Of a stretch of 64,000 bases of DNA, positions 45,104 through 56,278 are shown in pieces. Every line of letters starts with the position of its first letter. Within the stretch, counting starts at the first letter, position 1. Below the pieces are notes generated by a model. The model saw only the letters and a list, made by a program, of their open reading frames with translations, did not search any database and had not been told where the DNA came from. The DNA comes from Halomonas sp. CUBES01 (GTDB lineage: Bacteria > Pseudomonadota > Gammaproteobacteria > Pseudomonadales > Halomonadaceae): positions 62,001 through 126,000 of the forward strand of contig NZ_JAJLLW010000008.1 in the NCBI RefSeq assembly GCF_020991005.1, in the 5' to 3' direction. Position numbers and translations under genes: made by a program.

Positions 45104-46807
45104 ATGCTAAAGCGCTATTTGCCTATCCTGTCCTGGCTGCCTTACTACCATAAACGGTTACTCGGCGCGGATTTACTTGCAGGCCTGATTGTCACCGTCA
45201 TGGTAATCCCGCAGTCGCTCGCCTACGCGCTCCTCGCTGGACTGCCCGCAGTGGTGGGATTGTACGCCAGTATCCTGCCGCAGCTGGTGTACACCCTGTT
45301 TGGCACCAGCCGCACCCTGGCCGTCGGCCCGGTGGCCATCATTGCGCTGATGACCGGAGCCGCCCTTTCCTCGGTGGCCGCTCCCGGCTCAGAAACTTAT
45401 CTGCAAGCGGCCCTCGTGCTGTCGCTGCTTTCCGGGCTCATGCTGGTGGCCATGGGGCTGCTGAAAATGGGCTTTTTCAGCAATTTCCTGAGCCATCCGG
45501 TCATATCCGGCTTTTTAACCGCCTCGGGGATTCTGATTGCCGTCAGCCAGCTCGGCAGCCTGCTGGGCATCGAGAGCAGCGGATTTACGCTTGTCGAGCG
45601 CCTGGTGTCACTCGTTCCCAACCTGTCCGCTGCCAACCTGCCTACCTGTATGCTAGGCGTCGGTACGCTGGCGTTTCTGGTCTGGCTGCGCCGGCATGGC
45701 AAATCGACGTTGCGGCGGCTGGGGCTGCCCAGCAGCATCGCTGACCTGGTCGCCAAGGCAGGGCCGGTGATCGCAGTGGTAGCCACGACCCTGACTACTT
45801 GGCATTGGGGGCTCGCCGACCAGGGTGTCAACGTCGTGGGCGATGTTCCCGCCGGGCTGCCTGCTTTTAGCCTGCCCTGGGCGGACGCCTCGTTATGGCG
45901 GGCGCTGTTCATCCCCGCCTTGCTTATCAGCCTGGTCGGTTTTGTGGAGTCTGTTTCCATGGGGCAAATGCTGGCGGCGAAACGCCGTCAGCGTATTTCA
46001 CCCAACCAGGAACTGATTGGCCTGGGCGCTACCAACCTGGCGGCCGCCGTATCCCATGGCATGCCGGTCACCGGCGGTCTTTCGCGCACCGTGATCAATT
46101 ACGATGCGGGAGCGCAAACGCCGGCGGCAGGCGCCTTTGCCGCACTGGGGATTGCGCTGGTCACCATGGCCTTTACCGGCTGGCTTTATTACCTGCCGAT
46201 TGCCACCCTGGCGGCCACCATCACGGTATCTATCCTCACCCTGGTGGATATCCCCATGCTGCGCCAGACGTGGCGCTACTCGCGCAGCGATTTCTCGGCC
46301 ATGGCGTTGACCATCGTGCTCACGCTCGTCGAGGGAATAGAGGCAGGCATCCTGGGGGGTGTCACCCTGTCGATTGCGCTTTATCTTTACCGCACCAGCC
46401 GTCCGCATAGCGCGCTGGTCGGCCGAGTGCCTGAGACCGAGCATTTTCGCAACGTCGAACGTCACGATGTCGAAACCGTCAGCCGCGTGGCGCTCCTGCG
46501 GATCGATGAAAGCCTTTACTTTGCCAATGCGCGCTACCTGGAAGATACGCTGTACAACCTGGTGGCCAGCCGCCCCGAACTCGAGCACGTGGTGCTGATC
46601 TGCTCGGCGGTCAACCTGATCGACGCCTCGGCGCTGGAAAGCCTGGATGCCATCAATGCCCGCCTCAAGGATTCAAGCGTCAAGCTGCACCTTGCCGAAG
46701 TCAAAGGGCCGGTGATGGACCAGCTCAAGAAAAGCGACTTTCTTGACGCCCTCACCGGGCGCGTGTTTCTCAGCACCTATGCCGCGTGGCGTGAGTTTGC
46801 CCAGTGA
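45104..46807 (+). CDS. SulP-family anion transporter with STAS domain
   Basis: 567 residues. About 12-14 membrane segments with the SulP signature at the start (GLIVTVMVIPQSLAYALLAGLPAVVGLYASILP), then a cytosolic STAS domain (about 450-560: LLRIDESLYFANARYLED, NLIDASALESLD). Relatives take up sulfate, bicarbonate or dicarboxylates with Na+ or H+. The substrate cannot be told here. A TATAAT lies at 45025-45030 in the 245-bp upstream gap, without a good -35. It converges on the kinase gene with an 18-bp gap. Confidence 0.9.
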   Translation: MLKRYLPILSWLPYYHKRLLGADLLAGLIVTVMVIPQSLAYALLAGLPAVVGLYASILPQLVYTLFGTSRTLAVGPVAIIALMTGAALSSVAAPGSETYLQAALVLSLLSGLMLVAMGLLKMGFFSNFLSHPVISGFLTASGILIAVSQLGSLLGIESSGFTLVERLVSLVPNLSAANLPTCMLGVGTLAFLVWLRRHGKSTLRRLGLPSSIADLVAKAGPVIAVVATTLTTWHWGLADQGVNVVGDVPAGLPAFSLPWADASLWRALFIPALLISLVGFVESVSMGQMLAAKRRQRISPNQELIGLGATNLAAAVSHGMPVTGGLSRTVINYDAGAQTPAAGAFAALGIALVTMAFTGWLYYLPIATLAATITVSILTLVDIPMLRQTWRYSRSDFSAMALTIVLTLVEGIEAGILGGVTLSIALYLYRTSRPHSALVGRVPETEHFRNVERHDVETVSRVALLRIDESLYFANARYLEDTLYNLVASRPELEHVVLICSAVNLIDASALESLDAINARLKDSSVKLHLAEVKGPVMDQLKKSDFLDALTGRVFLSTYAAWREFAQ

Positions 46808-46825: not shown

Positions 46826-48691
46826 CTACTGGCGTGATTGCCTGATGTGTTCCCGCGGGTCGCGGGGATAGTAGCGCTCGGGCTGCCGTTCAAGATGGGT
46901 GAAGTAACGCGTGTCCTTGTAAGGCATTTTCATGAAGCCCGACACCCCCAGCCCTTCGATCTCGCATACCGAGGCCAGCATCTGTGCCAGCAAACGGCGA
47001 AATTCCTGCTCCCGGGAAGGGTCTAGCAGGCGGTAGTAGCTATGGATCTTGAGATGTTCGGGAAGCGCTTCAAAAATGATCATGCCGGTGTGGTGAATCT
47101 CGTTAAGCTGCTGCAGCACCTGCATGATCGAATCCGGCAGGGCCAGCAGCTCCTCGGGGTCGGGGCCGTCTTCAAAATAGCTGTGTTGCCGGGTGCGATC
47201 CTCGAGCTCTGGAACGGCGCTCATTTCATAGCTGATGGCCATGCCGGGAGCGCAGTAAAACGACGCCTCGGCGGAACGACGCTCAAGGTGCAGCGTTTGG
47301 CGGGCGTTGAACAGACAGCTTTTGAAGACGCCCTGACGATGGATCGCCCGCGCCAGGTGCACCATATTGTTGACCGCTTCAATAAAGGCGGGCTTGAGCA
47401 ACGGGTCGTGCAGGTTCAGGGAGGAGTCTATGTACACCCCTTCCCGCTCCCAGCGCACGGCCAGGCCGCCCACTACGGGATACTTACCGAGTCGACTCAC
47501 CGACGCCAGAAAGGCCTTTTCCGTCTCGCCCATGCCCTGCATGAACTGCTTGTAGTAACGGTCGAGTTGCACATCGTTGACGTCGTTCAGGGTCTCGGGC
47601 GCATTGGCTTCGCGCAGGAAGGCCTTGCGCGAACTGTACACCACCGTATCGATTTCCTGCTCGGCAGGACGAACCCACACCGGCACCAGCGGTGATTGAG
47701 CGTGGCCGGGCAGATCAAGCATCACGACCTTGGCCATGCGCGGCATCGCCTGTAGGAAGTAGTCACCGGCCCGGCGGCGCAAGTGCGGGTCGGGATCCAG
47801 CATGCCGTCGAGGGTGCGCGCAAACTCCATGGGCAACCCCAACGAACTGGCCGGAATCGCACGGTGGCCAAAACGGCAGGATTGCGCCGAGGCCAGTGCA
47901 TAAAGCGTGCCCGCCACGCCCTGCTCATCGAACCGCGGCGAGGAAAGCGCGCCGTTCAGCTGTTCCTCGCCGATAAAGTACACATCGCCCAGGCGGGCGT
48001 TGGTTTGCTGAAGATTATCCGACATCAGCTCCATCACGTTAGCGCCGACGAACTGCAGCTGGGCATCGAGCTGGGCAAACACCGCCGAGCCCCAGTCGAT
48101 CAGCGCGATGGATTCATGGTTCGGATCGAACACCAGGTTGGAGGGCTTGATATCGCCGTGCACCACCGGCCGCGCCTGGGGGCCCGACTCGCAGCGCAGG
48201 GCGGTGAGGATATCCGCAAGCTGAGCGGCAATGCGCATGATCAGGCGGGGCGACAATCGCCCTTCCCTGAGAGAGATCTGCTCCAGATTCCAGCCGGGCG
48301 CGCGTTCCATGACCAAAATGGACTGCCCGCGCGACCGCTGGTAGGTGATCAGCTTGGGGATACGCGGATGCGCGACCTGATCGAGCATGAACGCCTCTTC
48401 TTCAAGACGCTCCTGCAGATGGGTCGGCAAGGTAATACGGGAAAATTTAAACACATAATGCACGTTCGGCCCCGGGCCGCGGGTGTCGCCACCCACCGCT
48501 GGCGCGCTGCCGGCGAACACGAATCCGTAGGCCCCCTTGCCGATCAATTCGATGTCCTGATAGCCAAGCTGGGCGAGCTGCGCCTGGCACAGCGCCACCC
48601 AGTCCTTGAGTTTTCGGGCATCGTGATGGCTCAGCAGATAGACCGACTGTTCTTCGGGGATATAGAACTGCTGAAGCGGTGCCTGGGCCAT
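46826..48691 (-). CDS. Hanks-type serine/threonine protein kinase with a C-terminal domain of unknown function
   Basis: 621 residues, no membrane segment. The kinase domain (about 45-320) has the glycine loop IGKGAYGFVFAG (51-56), K82, a helix-C glutamate near 98-99, HGDIKPSN (D180, K182, N185) and DWG (D199-G201) in place of DFG, a common bacterial variant. All catalytic residues are present, so it should be active. Residues about 345-610 belong to no domain I know. It lies 12 bp after the dehydrogenase E2 gene on the same strand and is almost surely in that operon. Phosphorylation of the E1 alpha subunit is the natural hypothesis. Unlike the mitochondrial kinase, it is not of the histidine-kinase-like fold. 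Confidence 0.88.
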   Translation of the reverse strand: MAQAPLQQFYIPEEQSVYLLSHHDARKLKDWVALCQAQLAQLGYQDIELIGKGAYGFVFAGSAPAVGGDTRGPGPNVHYVFKFSRITLPTHLQERLEEEAFMLDQVAHPRIPKLITYQRSRGQSILVMERAPGWNLEQISLREGRLSPRLIMRIAAQLADILTALRCESGPQARPVVHGDIKPSNLVFDPNHESIALIDWGSAVFAQLDAQLQFVGANVMELMSDNLQQTNARLGDVYFIGEEQLNGALSSPRFDEQGVAGTLYALASAQSCRFGHRAIPASSLGLPMEFARTLDGMLDPDPHLRRRAGDYFLQAMPRMAKVVMLDLPGHAQSPLVPVWVRPAEQEIDTVVYSSRKAFLREANAPETLNDVNDVQLDRYYKQFMQGMGETEKAFLASVSRLGKYPVVGGLAVRWEREGVYIDSSLNLHDPLLKPAFIEAVNNMVHLARAIHRQGVFKSCLFNARQTLHLERRSAEASFYCAPGMAISYEMSAVPELEDRTRQHSYFEDGPDPEELLALPDSIMQVLQQLNEIHHTGMIIFEALPEHLKIHSYYRLLDPSREQEFRRLLAQMLASVCEIEGLGVSGFMKMPYKDTRYFTHLERQPERYYPRDPREHIRQSRQ

Positions 48692-48703
48692 AGGTTGCCT
48701 GCG

Positions 48704-49972
48704 TTAGCCTAGATGGAGAAGCATGGTCTCCGGGGCTTCGAGGAACGCTTTCCAGGCGTTGCAGAACCGCGCGATGGTGCCGCCATCGATAAACCGGTGG
48801 TCTCCCGCCCAGGTGATGGTCATGATCGCGCGACGCTGCACGTCGCCCCGTTCATCAAAGCGGGGCAGCCACTGGGTTTTGCCAATGGCGACGATGGCCG
48901 CTTCCGGCGCATTGATGATGGGCGCGGCGTAAGTGCCACCCAGCGCGCCGATATTGGAAATACTGATGGTGCCACCCTTGAGATCGGACTGATCGACCCG
49001 TCCCTCGCGAGCGGCGTTGGTCAAGCGGCCGACTTCCCGGGCAATCTCCAACAGCGTCAGGCGTTCGACGCCTTTAACATTGGGCACCATCAACCCCGCC
49101 TTGCTATCCACCGCCATGCCAATATTGCACTGCGGGTAGTAATGCAGCTCATCGCCGGCCTTATTCAGCTGCGCGTTGACGATTGGCTGCTCCGCCACAG
49201 CCAGCGCCATGGCCTTCATGAAAAACGGCATCAAGGTTAAACGCTCGCCCTGGGCCTCGGCCAAGGGCTTCAGGCGCTCGCGCATTGCCAGCAGTGCCGT
49301 CACGTCGATCTCGTCGCCGTAGTGAAAATGCGGAATGGTGGTCGCCGCCTCCACCATGCGCTTGGCCATGACCGCCCGCATGCCGCGTAGCGGCTCAACC
49401 CTGGGCACATTCTCGCCTACCTTGGCCCCCTCGATTCTCGGTGTCTGCTGGCCCACCTCGGCAGGCTGATCAAGGTGTGCCAGAACGTCTTCCTTGAGTA
49501 TCCGGCCGTCTTTGCCGCTGCCGTCAATATCCGTCAGGTTAAGGTGATGCTCGCGCACCAGCCTTCTCACGGCGGGGCTGGCGGGCACTTTACCTTGCCC
49601 TTTTGCGGACGCTGGTGCTGGCGACGTTACCTCCGACGGCGCCGCGGTTGTTTCGGTGCCGGAGGCGCGAGCGGCCTGTGAATCGCCGCCACCCTCCCGC
49701 GAGGCGCTGGTTTCGCCTGCTTCGCTGGTCGCTTCGCCTTCGGCCTGGTAGGCGTAAAGCGGCGCGTGCACTTTGGCAATCTGCCCCTGCTCGACATACA
49801 GCTTGGTCACCACCCCCGCTTCAGGGGCGGTAATTTCTACCAGCGCCTTGTCGGTCATCACCTCGACAATGGGCTGATCTTCCTCGATGCGATCGCCTTC
49901 CACGACGCGCCACTCGACCACTTCACACTCGACAATGCCTTCGCCGATATCCGGCAGCATAAAATCGCTCAT
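48704..49972 (-). CDS. bkdB: Branched-chain 2-oxoacid dehydrogenase E2 (dihydrolipoamide acyltransferase)
   Basis: 422 residues. One lipoyl domain (1-75) with the lipoylated lysine in VMTDKALVEI, an acidic Ala/Ser/Thr-rich hinge, an E1/E3-binding domain (about 130-165: ASPAVRRLVREHHLNLTDID), and the catalytic acyltransferase domain with DHRFIDGGTIARFCNAW at the end. It carries the acyl group from E1 to CoA. Begins 38 bp after the E1 beta stop. No lipoamide dehydrogenase gene is near, so E3 must come from elsewhere. Confidence 0.92.
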   Translation of the reverse strand: MSDFMLPDIGEGIVECEVVEWRVVEGDRIEEDQPIVEVMTDKALVEITAPEAGVVTKLYVEQGQIAKVHAPLYAYQAEGEATSEAGETSASREGGGDSQAARASGTETTAAPSEVTSPAPASAKGQGKVPASPAVRRLVREHHLNLTDIDGSGKDGRILKEDVLAHLDQPAEVGQQTPRIEGAKVGENVPRVEPLRGMRAVMAKRMVEAATTIPHFHYGDEIDVTALLAMRERLKPLAEAQGERLTLMPFFMKAMALAVAEQPIVNAQLNKAGDELHYYPQCNIGMAVDSKAGLMVPNVKGVERLTLLEIAREVGRLTNAAREGRVDQSDLKGGTISISNIGALGGTYAAPIINAPEAAIVAIGKTQWLPRFDERGDVQRRAIMTITWAGDHRFIDGGTIARFCNAWKAFLEAPETMLLHLG

Positions 49973-50010
49973 TGTTCTTCTCCCCGTGCGTGCTTGGGCG
50001 TTATACGCCG

Positions 50011-50988
50011 CTAGAAATTGACGCTTTCGCGAATCGCTTCAAAGATTTTGAGATGATCGGGCAGATACTCTTTTTCCAGCACCAGCGGGAAAGGCGTATC
50101 CAGCCCGGTCACCCGTGCAATGGGCGATTCCAGGTAGAGAAAACAACGTTCCTGTATCGTCGCGGCGATTTCACCGGCAAAGCCACCGGTCAGCGGTGCT
50201 TCATGGCTGACCACCAGGCGGCCGGTCTTGAATACCGATTCAGCCACCGTATCGGCGTCCCAGGGCAGCAGCGAACGCAGGTCGATCACCTCACAGTTGA
50301 TGCCCTGTTCTTCCGCCAGCTCCACCGCCTTGCCGATCACTTCCATCTGCGCGCCCCAACCCACCAGGGTAACGTCGCTACCTTCCTTGATGATCTCGGC
50401 GTCGCCAATGGGTAGCTGGTAATCGTCTTCCGGCACCTCACCCACTGCCGCGCGGTAAAGCCGCTTGGGTTCGAGAAACAGCACCGGATCGGGATCGCGA
50501 ATCGCCGCCAGCAACAAGCCCTTGGCCTGATAGGGATTACGCGGCACGACGACTTTCAGCCCCGGCGTGTGGGTGAAATACGCCTCGGGGGATTGCGAGT
50601 GATAAAGCCCGCCGGAGATACCGCCGCCATAGGGAGTGCGGATGGTCAGACCGCCGACGTTGAACAGATCGCCCGAGCGATACCGGAATTTGGCGGTCTC
50701 ATTTACGATCTGGTCGAAGGCGGGAAAAATATAGTCGGCGAACTGAATTTCAGCGACAGGTACCGAACCTTGAGCCGCCAGGCCGTTGGCAAAGCCAATG
50801 ATGCCCTGCTCAACCAGCGGCGTATTGAAACAGCGGGCTTTGCCGTATTTTTCCTGGAGATGGCTCGTGGCACGAAAGACACCGCCAAAGATCCCCACGT
50901 CTTCCCCAAAGCAGATGACTTTCTCGTCTTCCGCCATGGCAATGTCGAGGGCGTTATTGATCGCCTGGAGCATATTCATTGTAGCCAT
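50011..50988 (-). CDS. bkdA2: Branched-chain 2-oxoacid dehydrogenase E1 beta subunit
   Basis: 325 residues, start [20 protein letters not shown]. Motifs of the transketolase pyrimidine domain ([61 protein letters not shown]) and the C-terminal domain ([31 protein letters not shown]). The QSPEAYF segment fits the branched-chain group. GGGAGG lies 6 nt before the ATG. One base separates it from the E1 alpha stop. Confidence 0.93.
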
Positions 50989-50989
50989 G

Positions 50990-52195
50990 TTACGCCTCCC
51001 TTTGTGAGTCGCTGTCCGTGCTTACGCCAAGGTCCAACGACTTGGCGCCTCGGGGATAGGCTTCCGGGTAACGGCGAATATGCTGCTTGAGCTGATCGAA
51101 TTGACGCTGCAGTGCCGGCGTGACATCCGCATAGACATCGCTGATCAAGGAATCGAGCGGCGGTGGCGAGCGTTTTTCAGCGCGCTTCATGGTATCCAGC
51201 ACGTCGCGACGCAGGCTTTCCTGCTCGCGGGTTTCCTCGTCCTCGCTCCACCAGCCTTTGGCCAGCAACCACTTCTGCATGCGCAACAGCGGATCCTTGA
51301 TGCGCCAGGCTTCTTCCTCATTTTTGGAACGATAGCCTGACGGGTCATCGGAGGAAGAGTGCGCAGCCAGCCGATAGGTCATGGCTTCAATGAGTACCGG
51401 TTGATTATGCTCTACCGCTAACTTGCGTGCCTGACGGGTGGCTTCATAGACCGCCAGCACGTCGTTGCCGTCGACCCGAATGACATGCATATGATAGCCA
51501 AACGCCCGCGGCGCAATGCCGTCGGCGGCAAATTGCTCAACCGCCGGGGTCGAAATCGCGTAGCCGTTGTTGCGGCAGAAGAAAATCACCGGCACCTGAT
51601 GCACCGAGGCCATATTGAGCGCCGCGTGAAAATCGCCTTCCGACGCGGCGCCCTCGCCAAAGAAAGTCAGCGTGCAGTGGCCGTCTCCGGCCATTTTCTG
51701 GCCGTAGGCATAGCCAGTGGCCTGAGGAATCTGGGTGGCGAGCGGCGATGAGATCGTCATGTAGTGGAGCTTGCGCGAGCCATAATGAATCGGCATCTGC
51801 CGGCCCTTGCCGTAATCCAGCTCGTTGCCGAACAGCTGATTCATGAACTCGTCGATGGAGAACCCCCGGTACATCAACGCGCCCTGTTCACGGTACTGGG
51901 CCATGATCATGTCGGCATCGTCGAGTGCGGCAGTCGCGCCCACGACGGCGGCTTCTTCACCGGTGCACTGCATGTAGAAACTCAGCCGCCCCTGCCGCTG
52001 GGCCGCCAGCATGCGTTCATCGAGGATACGCGTGGCCAGCATGGCGTGGTAGATACGCCGGGCATGGTCATGTTCCAGGTGCGGCGCATCCGCCTCGCTG
52101 TAGAGCTCGCCCTCGGGGCTTAACAAACTAAAGGTAGGGATCGAGAATTCATCACCTGTCAGAAAAACAGGCTGGTGCGATTGCTGTGTCATCAT
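50990..52195 (-). CDS. bkdA1: Branched-chain 2-oxoacid dehydrogenase E1 alpha subunit
   Basis: 401 residues, thiamine-diphosphate enzyme that decarboxylates the keto acids of valine, leucine and isoleucine. The sequence is strikingly close to animal [86 protein letters not shown] and [13 protein letters not shown]. The loop [13 protein letters not shown] keeps both serines (S280, S290) that correspond to the two phosphosites of the mammalian enzyme. AAGGAC lies just before two ATG codons. First gene of the operon; a 131-bp upstream gap presumably holds the promoter. Confidence 0.94.
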
Positions 52196-52326: not shown

Positions 52327-53103
52327 TTAAGATGTAAACAGACGCGAGCGCAGACGTTCCTGAAGCCGCTCGAACAGACTGTCGACGGTCAGCGCCAGCA
52401 GCGCAATCGTCAGTGCCCCCTGGATGATATATGCCATATTGCCGTTCACGATGCCGGCGATGATGGGGTCGCCCAGATTGCGCGCCCCCACCGTCGCGCC
52501 GATGGCGGCCGTCGAAATATTGATGGTGATGGAAGTGCGTATGCCCGCCAGAATTATCGGCGCTGCAAGCGGCAGCTCTACCTGACGGAGCACTTGCCAG
52601 GGCGTCATGCCCATGGCGGTGGCCGCGCTTTTGATGTCTTTATCGACATCCTGCAGCCCGCCCAGGGTGTTACGCACGATGGGAAGCATGCCATACAGCA
52701 CCAGCGCGACAATGATCGGCAAGGTGCCAAAGCCTAGCGCCGGTACCGCCAGCGCAAGCACGGCCACCGGTGGAAAGGTCTGCCCCAGCGAGGCCACCTG
52801 CGCGACCATGGGTAAAAAGTCGCGGCCCCATTCGCGGGTCACCACAATAGCCGCGAGAACGCCCCCCACGATGGTCACCACGGCGGCCACGCTGACCACG
52901 AAGAGATGCTTTAGCAATAGCGAGGCCAGACTCGCCCGCTGGTAAACCACCTGGTTGGCGTCGGGTTCGAGCACCCGCAGCAAACCGTCGGCGTAGGGGA
53001 AACCCCATACGCATAGCATCAAGAGTACAAACCATGTTGCTGGCCATATCGCGCGGCTGGCACCCCGCGATGCAAGGGAGCGACGCACGGCGCTAGGACT
53101 CAC
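52327..53103 (-). CDS. yehW: Osmoprotectant ABC transporter permease YehW
   Basis: 258 residues with about six membrane segments and the ProW/OpuB-type EAA loop AATAMGMTPWQVLRQVELPLAAPIIL. GTG start, overlapping the ATPase gene by 11 bp. The gene order osmF-yehY-yehX-yehW is the same as in E. coli. The system binds glycine betaine with low affinity in E. coli; in a halophile it is probably used for compatible solutes. Confidence 0.9.
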   Translation of the reverse strand: MSPSAVRRSLASRGASRAIWPATWFVLLMLCVWGFPYADGLLRVLEPDANQVVYQRASLASLLLKHLFVVSVAAVVTIVGGVLAAIVVTREWGRDFLPMVAQVASLGQTFPPVAVLALAVPALGFGTLPIIVALVLYGMLPIVRNTLGGLQDVDKDIKSAATAMGMTPWQVLRQVELPLAAPIILAGIRTSITINISTAAIGATVGARNLGDPIIAGIVNGNMAYIIQGALTIALLALTVDSLFERLQERLRSRLFTS

Positions 53104-54058
53104 GCACTTTTCCTTGTTCGGGCTGGGCTTCCTTGACGATCTTGCGCAGCGTCAGCTCGCCCACGGGCACATCGTGCTGATCCACCACGGTAAGACGATC
53201 GGTGTGATCACGGAGCATCATGGAAAGCGCCTGTCGCAGCGAGAAAGCAGCCGGGATACGCGAGTGGGCAGGAAGCGTTGGCCCCATGGGGGACATATGG
53301 TCTTTGATCCGCGTCAGTGCCGCCTGCTTGAGCCCACGCTCGAGGCCGCCGAGCAACGACTCGACGAACGAATCGTTGGGGTGCTGCAGAAGCGAAAGGG
53401 GCGAGCCCTGCTGAACGATGCGTCCGTCGCGCATCACCACGAGGTGGTCCGCCAGCCTCAGCGCTTCATCCATGTCGTGGGTCACGAACACCACGGTTTT
53501 ATGCAGCCGGGCCTGTAGCCTGGAAAGCTCATCCTGGAGCTTTTCCCGGGTGATAGGGTCCAACGCGCCGAAAGGCTCGTCCATCAACAGAATATCCGGG
53601 TCGGCGGCCAGCGCCCGGGCCACGCCAACGCGCTGCGCCTGGCCGCCCGAAAGCTGGTGAGGGTATTTGGTAGCAAACTCGCCCACCGGAAGTCCCAACA
53701 GCGTCATCAGCTCCTCGACCTTGGCCTGAATATCCGCCGACGACCATTTAAGCAGGCGCGGCACCAGGCCAATATTGCGCGCCACGGTCCAGTGCGGAAA
53801 CAGCCCTGTATGTTGAATGACGTAGCCGATACGCCGACGCAGCTTGACCGGGTCGTAGGCGGCCACCGGCTGGCCGTCGAGGATGATGTCACCGTCGCTG
53901 TGCTCGATAAGCCGATTGATCATGCGCAGCGTCGTCGATTTACCACAGCCCGAGGTGCCCACCAGCGCACAAAAGGTGCCTTTTGGAATATGCAGCGAAA
54001 TGTCATCCACTGCCGCAACGTCACCGAACCGTTTGGTCACGTGGGCAAGTTCGATCAT
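53093..54058 (-). CDS. yehX: Osmoprotectant ABC transporter ATPase YehX
   Basis: 321 residues. Walker A GTSGCGKSTTLRMI, Q loop VIQHTGLFPHWTV, signature LSGGQAQRVGVARAL, Walker B ILLMDEPFGALD and H loop FVTHDMDEAL. The C-terminal 70 residues form a short CBS-like segment (RLTVVDQHDVPVGELTL) as in OpuCA/ProV-like proteins. Overlaps yehY by 4 bp (ATGA) and yehW by 11 bp. Confidence 0.92.
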   Translation of the reverse strand: MIELAHVTKRFGDVAAVDDISLHIPKGTFCALVGTSGCGKSTTLRMINRLIEHSDGDIILDGQPVAAYDPVKLRRRIGYVIQHTGLFPHWTVARNIGLVPRLLKWSSADIQAKVEELMTLLGLPVGEFATKYPHQLSGGQAQRVGVARALAADPDILLMDEPFGALDPITREKLQDELSRLQARLHKTVVFVTHDMDEALRLADHLVVMRDGRIVQQGSPLSLLQHPNDSFVESLLGGLERGLKQAALTRIKDHMSPMGPTLPAHSRIPAAFSLRQALSMMLRDHTDRLTVVDQHDVPVGELTLRKIVKEAQPEQGKVRES

Positions 54059-55272
54059 GGGGAGTCTCCAGACTGCACGCTATCGTTAGGCCGCAGAATA
54101 TCCGCCAGGGCACCGAGACCGGCGTCGGCAATGAGCGCCAGTATCAGAATCGGCAACGCCCCCAGCAATACCATGTCCATGGCCGCCTGCCCCAGGCCCT
54201 GAAAGATAAACGCTCCCAGACCACCCGCCCCGATCAAGGCGGCGACAGCGGTCAGGCCGATCGCCTGAACGGTGGTGATGCGGATTCCTTCGAGCAGCAC
54301 CGGCAGCGCCAGTGGCAAGCGAACCTGGATGAAACGCTGGCGGTTGCGCATCCCCATGCCCCGCGCCGCTTCCAGGGTTTCCGGGCTCACCTGCTCGAGC
54401 GCAATATAGGTATTGCGCACCATCGGCAGCAGGCTGTAGGCGACCAGCGCGAGCAAGGCCGGGGCCCAGCCAATCCCGCTGAAACCTAACTGTGACAGCA
54501 GCGGCCACTTTGCGGCAAGCCACGCCAAGGGGCCCAGCATCAGGCCAAACAGGGCAATACTGGGGATGGTTTGCAGGAAGTTGAGCACGCCAAAGGCAAT
54601 TTTCTGGCATCTTGTATAGCGTCGCATCAGCATGGTCAGCGAGAGCCCCAGCACAATACTAATGGCCACTGATGCACTGACAAGGGTGACATGCTGATGC
54701 AGGGCACGCCAGAACTCGTCGTCCCGGGCGCGAAACTCTTGCCCCAGGGCAAGCGATTCGAGCCCCAGCATGACGCACAGCCCCCAGACAACGGTCACGC
54801 CCGCCAGCATCAGTAGCAAGCGTCGCCGTGACAGCGCCAGGCGTAGCCGCAGCTCGATCCAGCCAAGCAACAGCAGCGAGAGCATCAGCCAATAGGCCAT
54901 GCCCATATTGAGGCGTGCCATGGGCGTATCACTGCTGATCAGCCTGTGGCTGGCGACCATCAGGCCAACGGGTAGCAACAACAGCAGCAGCGATACACCG
55001 ACCAGAACGACCTGATAGCCTTGTCGGCTGGGCTGAAGCGACAACGCCAGAAGGGTGAGTATCACCGCACTGACCAACGAAGCCCCCATCCAACCCATGG
55101 CCTCGATCAGCCCGACCCCTTCCCCGCTGACAATCCGGTTGGGGGCGACACTGACCACATCCAGAAGCCAGACAGCCGCCAGCATGGCACTGAAAAGGAC
55201 AAACAGGACGCGATTCGGCCGCCACTGCCGCCAAGACACCTGCGGGGTAGGCAGTGCATCCAATAACGACAT
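54055..55272 (-). CDS. yehY: Osmoprotectant ABC transporter permease YehY
   Basis: 405 residues. About four extra N-terminal membrane segments (residues 20-180) come before the usual permease domain, whose EAA loop reads AARGMGMRNRQRFIQVRLPLALPVLL. The long form is typical of YehY. Starts 2 bp after the osmF stop. Confidence 0.9.
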   Translation of the reverse strand: MSLLDALPTPQVSWRQWRPNRVLFVLFSAMLAAVWLLDVVSVAPNRIVSGEGVGLIEAMGWMGASLVSAVILTLLALSLQPSRQGYQVVLVGVSLLLLLLPVGLMVASHRLISSDTPMARLNMGMAYWLMLSLLLLGWIELRLRLALSRRRLLLMLAGVTVVWGLCVMLGLESLALGQEFRARDDEFWRALHQHVTLVSASVAISIVLGLSLTMLMRRYTRCQKIAFGVLNFLQTIPSIALFGLMLGPLAWLAAKWPLLSQLGFSGIGWAPALLALVAYSLLPMVRNTYIALEQVSPETLEAARGMGMRNRQRFIQVRLPLALPVLLEGIRITTVQAIGLTAVAALIGAGGLGAFIFQGLGQAAMDMVLLGALPILILALIADAGLGALADILRPNDSVQSGDSP

Positions 55273-55274
55273 GC

Positions 55275-56189
55275 TCAGTCGTTATCCAGGCTATCGAGGT
55301 AATCGCCGGCGACCTTATTGGGTGACATGCCGTTCACTGCCACATCGGCATTGAGCTTTTGCAGCGTCTCGAGATCCAGGGTGTTGAAGACCTCCTCGAG
55401 AAGCCCGTCGATATCCGGATAGGTTGCCAGCACGCTTTCACGCACCACCGGTGCCGGTTGATAGACAGGCTGAACGCCCCTTGAGTCCTCAAGCACGACC
55501 AGCCCCAGGGCATTCAGCCCGCCGTCGGTACCGTAAGTCATCGCCGCATTGACACCGCTGGTCTGTTCCGCTGCCGCGCGCATCGTCGCCGCGGTATTGC
55601 CGCCGGAAAGAACCAGCAACTGATCTTCACTCAGCTCGAACCCGTAGGCCTGCTGAAAGGCGGGCAACGCCTGCGCGGACTCGACGAACTCGGCGCTTGC
55701 GGCAAACTTGAACTCGCCGCCGTCCTCAAGGTAGGCGGCAAGGTCGTCAAGCGTTTCAAGGTCATGCGCGTCGGCCACATCGCGACGCACGCTCATCGCC
55801 CAGGTGTTGTTGGCGCTGGCGGGGGTCAACCAGACCAGGCCCTGCTCGGCATCGCGCTCGCGGACGGTCTCGTAGGCTTGTTCGGCATCCTTCCACACGT
55901 CGCTGTCGGCCATGTCGAAGAAAAAGGCCCCGTTACCGGTATATTCGGGATAAAGGTCTATTTCTCCGGCTTCCAGCGCGCTACGCACCACGCTGGTGCC
56001 GCCTAGCTGCAGCCGGTCTTCGGTGGGAATATCATGGCGCTCCAGCGTTTGCATGATCAGCTCACCCAATACCGAGCCTTCCGTGTCGATCTTGGACGAC
56101 ACCACCACGGCGTCGTCGGCGTTGACCGAAGCAAACGGCAGCAAGCTGAGACAGCCCAGGGCAATGGTTGATTTCGTGGCAAAGCGCAT
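55275..56189 (-). CDS. osmF: Osmoprotectant-binding protein OsmF (YehZ)
   Basis: 304 residues. Signal peptide with cleavage near VNA-DD (about residue 25). The OpuAC/ProX-like binding domain begins VVVSSKIDTEGSVLGELIMQ and contains DLYPEYTGNGAFFF, the aromatic-rich quaternary-amine site region. The ATG at 56189 has AAGG 9 nt upstream; an ATG three codons earlier is too close to it. First gene of the osmF-yehYXW operon. Confidence 0.91.
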   Translation of the reverse strand: MRFATKSTIALGCLSLLPFASVNADDAVVVSSKIDTEGSVLGELIMQTLERHDIPTEDRLQLGGTSVVRSALEAGEIDLYPEYTGNGAFFFDMADSDVWKDAEQAYETVRERDAEQGLVWLTPASANNTWAMSVRRDVADAHDLETLDDLAAYLEDGGEFKFAASAEFVESAQALPAFQQAYGFELSEDQLLVLSGGNTAATMRAAAEQTSGVNAAMTYGTDGGLNALGLVVLEDSRGVQPVYQPAPVVRESVLATYPDIDGLLEEVFNTLDLETLQKLNADVAVNGMSPNKVAGDYLDSLDND

Positions 56190-56278
56190 TGTTATCATCC
56201 TTTTGGCAGAAACTCATTAAAGTATATGCCCGTCGTGCGTTGAAGTCAGATTCCTTGCCATCCCTTGATAGCCTATCC

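Follow-up and report, generated by a model that had tools for sequence, protein, structure and literature searches.

A Hanks-type protein kinase encoded with, and almost always accompanying, a mitochondrial-type branched-chain dehydrogenase in Halomonas and its relatives

The window, the whole 64-kb stretch of DNA that was analysed, comes from a 3.6-Mb genome of the Halomonas/Vreelandella group assembled in 30 contigs. Its minus strand carries three genes of a branched-chain 2-oxoacid dehydrogenase (BCKDH) and a protein kinase gene in the order bkdA1-bkdA2-bkdB-kinase, separated by gaps of 1, 38 and 12 bp in the list of open reading frames. The initial annotation had described this four-gene layout with the same gaps, and the reading frames and their Pfam matches agree with it exactly. 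The genes and the features within them are as follows:

50990..52195, minus strand: bkdA1, E1 alpha of the branched-chain 2-oxoacid dehydrogenase, mitochondrial type (401 aa; Pfam E1_dh, 6.6e-99)
51326..51364, minus strand: E1-alpha loop A278-S290, the counterpart of the mitochondrial phosphorylation loop in the alignment with 1dtw_A
50011..50988, minus strand: bkdA2, E1 beta (325 aa; Pfam Transket_pyr, 3.9e-43, and Transketolase_C, 2.5e-37)
48704..49972, minus strand: bkdB, E2 acyltransferase (422 aa; one lipoyl domain, PF00364; E3_binding, PF02817; 2-oxoacid_dh catalytic domain, PF00198)
46826..48691, minus strand: kinase gene, proposed dedicated BCKDH kinase on the basis of linkage and co-occurrence (621 aa; Pfam Pkinase, 55 bits)
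48632..48676, minus strand: conserved N-terminal motif LQQFYIPEEQSVYLL, kinase residues 6-20, a possible docking or regulatory segment
47723..48595, minus strand: Hanks kinase domain, approximately residues 33-323, from the predicted fold
48137..48160, minus strand: catalytic loop HGDIKPSN, residues 178-185, invariant in 37/37 aligned kinases
48089..48097, minus strand: metal-binding motif at residues 199-201, which reads DWG instead of DFG and is invariant in 37/37
46829..47704, minus strand: C-terminal domain, residues 330-621 (about 290 residues), predicted to form two alpha-beta-beta-alpha-beta-beta units

An E3 gene is absent from the four-gene set. A consensus scan of the minus strand between 46500 and 52700 found no sigma-70-like site and hence no sign of the separate kinase promoter that the initial annotation had named as an argument against its reading, although such a scan is weak evidence. 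Upstream of bkd lies a glycine-betaine-type ABC transporter (52327-56198, minus strand) with a substrate-binding protein, two permeases and an ATPase recognized by Pfam. Among the best 80 of 285 named loci, most of those from the Halomonas group that have long flanks share this neighbourhood. On the other side, a SulP sulfate-permease-family transporter with a STAS domain (45104-46807, plus strand) is convergent with the kinase gene; its adjacency to the kinase differs from relative to relative among the same best 80 of 285 loci.

The kinase matched Pfam Pkinase (PF00069) at 55 bits, above the gathering cut-off of 31.7, and all 37 members of kinase alignment A1 matched the same family at E <=0.05. 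The predicted structure has the two lobes of a kinase fold. No Pfam match at E <=0.01 was found in the kinase to the GHKL ATPase or BCDHK_Adom3 domains that would place it with BCKDK and PDK, or to the AceK domain that would place it with AceK. The kinase was thus correctly described at the outset as Hanks-type and not GHKL. A search of the genomes with PF10436 was uninformative because no control genome gave a match.

The E1 alpha encoded by bkdA1 is closer to mitochondrial BCKDHA than to the other E1 alphas among solved structures. Its best PDB match was the BCKDH E1-alpha 1dtw_A (397 bits), versus 236 bits for 1um9_A, 228 for 2bp7_A and 223 for the pyruvate dehydrogenase 1w85_A; we take these four structures to come from human, Thermus, P. 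putida and Geobacillus, respectively. E1-alpha matches in genomes were bimodal, with either E <=4e-146 and >=57% identity or E >=5e-83 and <=45% identity, and we use 'mitochondrial-type' for the former group. By sequence, the E1 alpha is of the kind that is under kinase control in mitochondria (PMC11078707). In the phylum sample, mitochondrial-type E1 alpha occurred only in the window's own class, the matches from other classes having <=45% identity. Such a restriction to one class could be informative about where the mitochondrial enzyme came from. The E2 subunit also varies among the loci: those at L199:7371-8978 (family f185) and L204:4015-5637 (Shewanella-type) have two lipoyl domains, compared with one in the window.

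The initial annotation had tied the kinase to the dehydrogenase and proposed asking whether the kinase follows bkd in relatives. For the named kinase loci, we fetched the best 80 of 285 confirmed, all of them close relatives, the closest being Halomonas sp. HL-48 (98%). E2 lay upstream of the kinase in 79 of these best 80. Both ends of the E2-kinase gap were readable in 75 loci, and in 73 of them it measured 4-191 bp. The one locus without E2 upstream is L079 from Halomonas ramblicola, where neither E1 nor E2 was found in the 8 kb preceding the kinase. Across the genome samples described below, 124 genomes have both genes, and in 103 of them the kinase follows E1 alpha on the same strand at a distance of <=3.5 kb. 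The two genes are 3.5-8 kb apart in seven more, and >8 kb apart or on different contigs in the remaining 14. One of these 14 (G390) likely reflects a contig break because its contigs end in E2-kinase and E1-E2. The other 13 still hold the kinase, including two Shewanella-type genomes (the genus label is taken from their kinase homologs) in which kinase and E1 alpha are 1.7 and 2.0 Mb apart. The sampled groups with unlinked but paired genes are family f225, part of f6 and genus g3 of f1. Furthermore, other genes can intervene between E2 and the kinase in loci of f185 (L157, L199, L201, L202 and L203), such as rlmJ in L199. The bkd-kinase arrangement is far beyond chance, and the proposed tie holds both in gene order and in the co-occurrence of the two genes. 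The absence of linkage in relatives, which the initial annotation had named as a refutation, is not borne out, the genes being linked in most genomes and unlinked but both present in 13.

The same genome samples, which overlap, were searched for the kinase and for E1 alpha. In the family sample (121 genomes), kinase and mitochondrial-type E1 alpha were each found in 86 genomes, and these were identical; the other 35 had neither gene and none was discordant. The family kinase count omits nine weak matches with E >1e-5 and includes genome G105, whose match lies in a faulty stretch. Each gene was present in 36 of the 293 genomes of the order sample (35 in common), in the same three of the 274 genomes of the class sample, the window's own genome among them, and in the same 16 of the 299 genomes of the phylum sample. 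Pooling the samples gave 126 distinct genomes with either gene, of which 124 had both; 39 of the 125 kinase genomes fall outside the window's family. No kinase was found in genomes having only the weaker E1-alpha type (0/12 in the order, 0/7 in the class and 0/39 in the phylum sample), nor in five such genomes retested individually at E 1e-6. Fisher values for the pairing are tiny; the genomes are phylogenetically non-independent, so the argument rests on the pattern and not on these values. The new result is that the kinase and mitochondrial-type E1 alpha almost always co-occur, even when unlinked. Genera among the kinase homologs include Halomonas, Vreelandella, Marinobacter, Shewanella, Pseudoalteromonas, Paraglaciecola and Hahella. 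One homolog with 87% identity (P0007) is filed under the brown alga Ectocarpus and is probably bacterial contamination of that assembly.

Several records call for individual comment. G257, an assembly of 280 contigs, has E1 alpha, E1 beta and E2 with no kinase match and speaks against a dedicated kinase. Next after its three bkd genes comes a Glu/Leu/Phe/Val dehydrogenase gene, which fits branched-chain catabolism. Conversely, G315 is the only sampled genome in which a kinase was found but E1 alpha, searched at E 1e-60, was not. Its kinase starts about 33 codons late, keeps the catalytic motifs and adjoins the same acyl-CoA-dehydrogenase-like gene (presumably of the glutaryl-CoA type) as in G274, where bkd precedes the kinase. 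The kinase thus stands at the locus that carries bkd in relatives, and from this position and the late start we infer that a deletion probably removed bkd along with the beginning of the kinase gene. In-frame stops interrupt 10 of the 86 family kinase matches: nine have a single stop and open frames of 607-1222 aa, and the tenth is G105. In the G105 locus (L166, contig C8), E2, kinase and SulP drop to 25-36% identity with stops from position ~5700 on, next to an E1 alpha with 80% identity, and the stretch looks like faulty assembly sequence.

We consider it reasonably probable that the kinase is dedicated to the co-encoded mitochondrial-type BCKDH, functionally convergent with mitochondrial BCKDK and of unrelated fold. 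It probably switches the branched-chain dehydrogenase, as the unrelated kinase does in mitochondria. The regulatory role suggested in the initial annotation is strengthened to a functional pairing in genomes; activity, subunit, site, direction and signal are what we infer. The kinase domain would phosphorylate E1 alpha as the most likely subunit, probably at Ser280 in the phosphorylation loop, and phosphorylation would slow the conversion of branched-chain keto acids to acyl-CoAs. The N-terminal motif and C-terminal domain may attach the kinase to the complex and respond to a metabolic signal such as a keto acid, a CoA ester, a nucleotide or the redox state.

The pairing in genomes is blind to which subunit is the substrate. 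The kinase could therefore serve the branched-chain pathway without acting on E1 alpha, its substrate being E2, E1 beta, a transcription factor of the pathway or some other enzyme of catabolism, or it could activate rather than inhibit, an alternative that we regard as unlikely. In line with it, the kinase also adjoins the acyl-CoA-dehydrogenase-like gene in G274 and G315 and an acyl-CoA thioesterase gene in L199. Nor does the candidate site favour E1 alpha. Ser280 (codon 51356-51358) and Ser290, which we take to be sites 1 and 2 of the mitochondrial loop, differ in conservation: position 280 is serine in 121/121 mitochondrial-type loci and in 19/20 other E1-alphas, whereas position 290 is serine in 92/121 and 5/20, respectively, and varies within kinase-bearing lineages. 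Conservation of site 1 is thus independent of kinase presence, and because Ser280 is equally kept in E1-alphas without the kinase it lends no support to phosphorylation there. However, the distribution of the kinase tracks the E1-alpha type, while its other neighbours change between lineages, and this speaks against the alternative.

A purely historical link, in which the gene has travelled with bkd through shared ancestry while doing something unrelated in the cell, is improbable. The kinase and bkd trees branch much alike, as shared descent alone can produce. Distance matrices from 39 hand-picked genomes correlated at r = 0.83 for kinase and E1 alpha and equally (0.83) for E1 alpha and E2, which favours a dedicated kinase; the lower correlation of kinase and E2 distances in the same genomes (r = 0.71) tells against one. 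Common descent accounts for part of these correlations, and G315 keeps its kinase without a detected E1 alpha. Nevertheless, the pairing survives gene separation in three groups, and the family sample contains 35 genomes without both genes and not one that is discordant.

It is highly unlikely that the protein is a pseudokinase or scaffold that aids complex assembly without phosphorylation. The HRD motif reads HGD, the DFG motif reads DWG, and the activation segment is of low confidence at residues 218-232 of the predicted structure. Yet the glycine loop (G51/G53/G56), the VAIK lysine K82, the alpha-C glutamate E99, the HRD aspartate D180, the asparagine N185 and the DFG aspartate D199, roles assigned from the canonical Hanks motifs, are invariant in 37/37 kinases, and degenerate sites usually drift in pseudokinases. 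As modelled, the kinase has a Hanks fold and its predicted catalytic residues are intact. Least credible of all is a role in anti-phage defence as a PD-T4-6-type kinase: PD-T4-6 models are the top PADLOC matches (E 1.7e-19), but they cover mainly the generic kinase core (best, residues 90-207) and have no PADLOC cut-off, and the gene is widely conserved, bound to a metabolic operon and follows the operon's tree, whereas typical defence genes behave otherwise.

For a dedicated BCKDH kinase, the regions outside the kinase core are of particular interest. Residues F9, Y10, I11, E13, Q15, S16, Y18, L19 and L20 of the N-terminal motif are invariant in all 37 aligned kinases, and the pattern ending in YL[LM] is present in 143 of 145 distinct kinases from the fetched loci. 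Family and fold searches with the C-terminal domain gave no match. PknG has a regulatory TPR domain (PMC8546545), and on this analogy the C-terminal domain is the best candidate for signal input. Evenly balanced, in our view, is the broader proposal of an undescribed family of Hanks-fold BCKDH kinases with a new C-terminal sensor domain, spread over many gammaproteobacteria, in which on-enzyme control was re-invented independently of the GHKL kinase. A targeted search of the open-access literature found no earlier description of a bkd-linked Hanks kinase. A search of the window's genome with one PP2C family identified no dedicated phosphatase; the sole match above cut-off (L206:1447-3177) is a fusion of phosphatase and kinase whose contig is not the one with bkd, with neighbours that we take to resemble cysG and part of a nitrite reductase.

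If the proposed role is correct, bacteria have their own equivalent of BCKDK, derived from another kinase fold and readily testable in tractable species. A eukaryote-like kinase acting on the complex would mean reversible phosphorylation of a 2-oxoacid dehydrogenase in gammaproteobacteria. It would also assign a function to a kinase whose source names say just 'protein kinase', point to an uncharacterised sensor domain and bear on branched-chain metabolism in Halomonas, a genus with industrial use.

Among known systems, AceK, the isocitrate dehydrogenase kinase/phosphatase, acts on a metabolic enzyme and has its gene together with those of the pathway under its control. The window's kinase is likewise encoded with its presumed target pathway; it differs in lacking an AceK family match, in its N-terminal kinase domain and in having no known phosphatase activity. 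Unlike PknB-type Hanks kinases, it has no Pfam match to PASTA domains and carries its own N- and C-terminal extensions. PknG, according to PMC8546545, is a bacterial Hanks-type kinase for nutrient-responsive control of the 2-oxoacid dehydrogenase regulator OdhI/GarA in actinobacteria, and so resembles the role proposed for the window's kinase. PknG, however, carries a TPR domain and its target is an inhibitor protein distinct from the enzyme, whereas the window's four genes include no inhibitor gene and its kinase has no Pfam match to TPR domains. BCKDK, as portrayed in PMC11078707, belongs to the histidine-kinase family; held by a tether to the lipoyl group of E2, it phosphorylates S293 of E1, and activity falls. 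In contrast to that family membership, the window's kinase is predicted to adopt a Hanks fold, and no fold match was found for its C-terminal domain. The likeness to BCKDK lies in the proposed role, that of a kinase dedicated to a mitochondrial-type BCKDH, and in E1-alpha loops that align.
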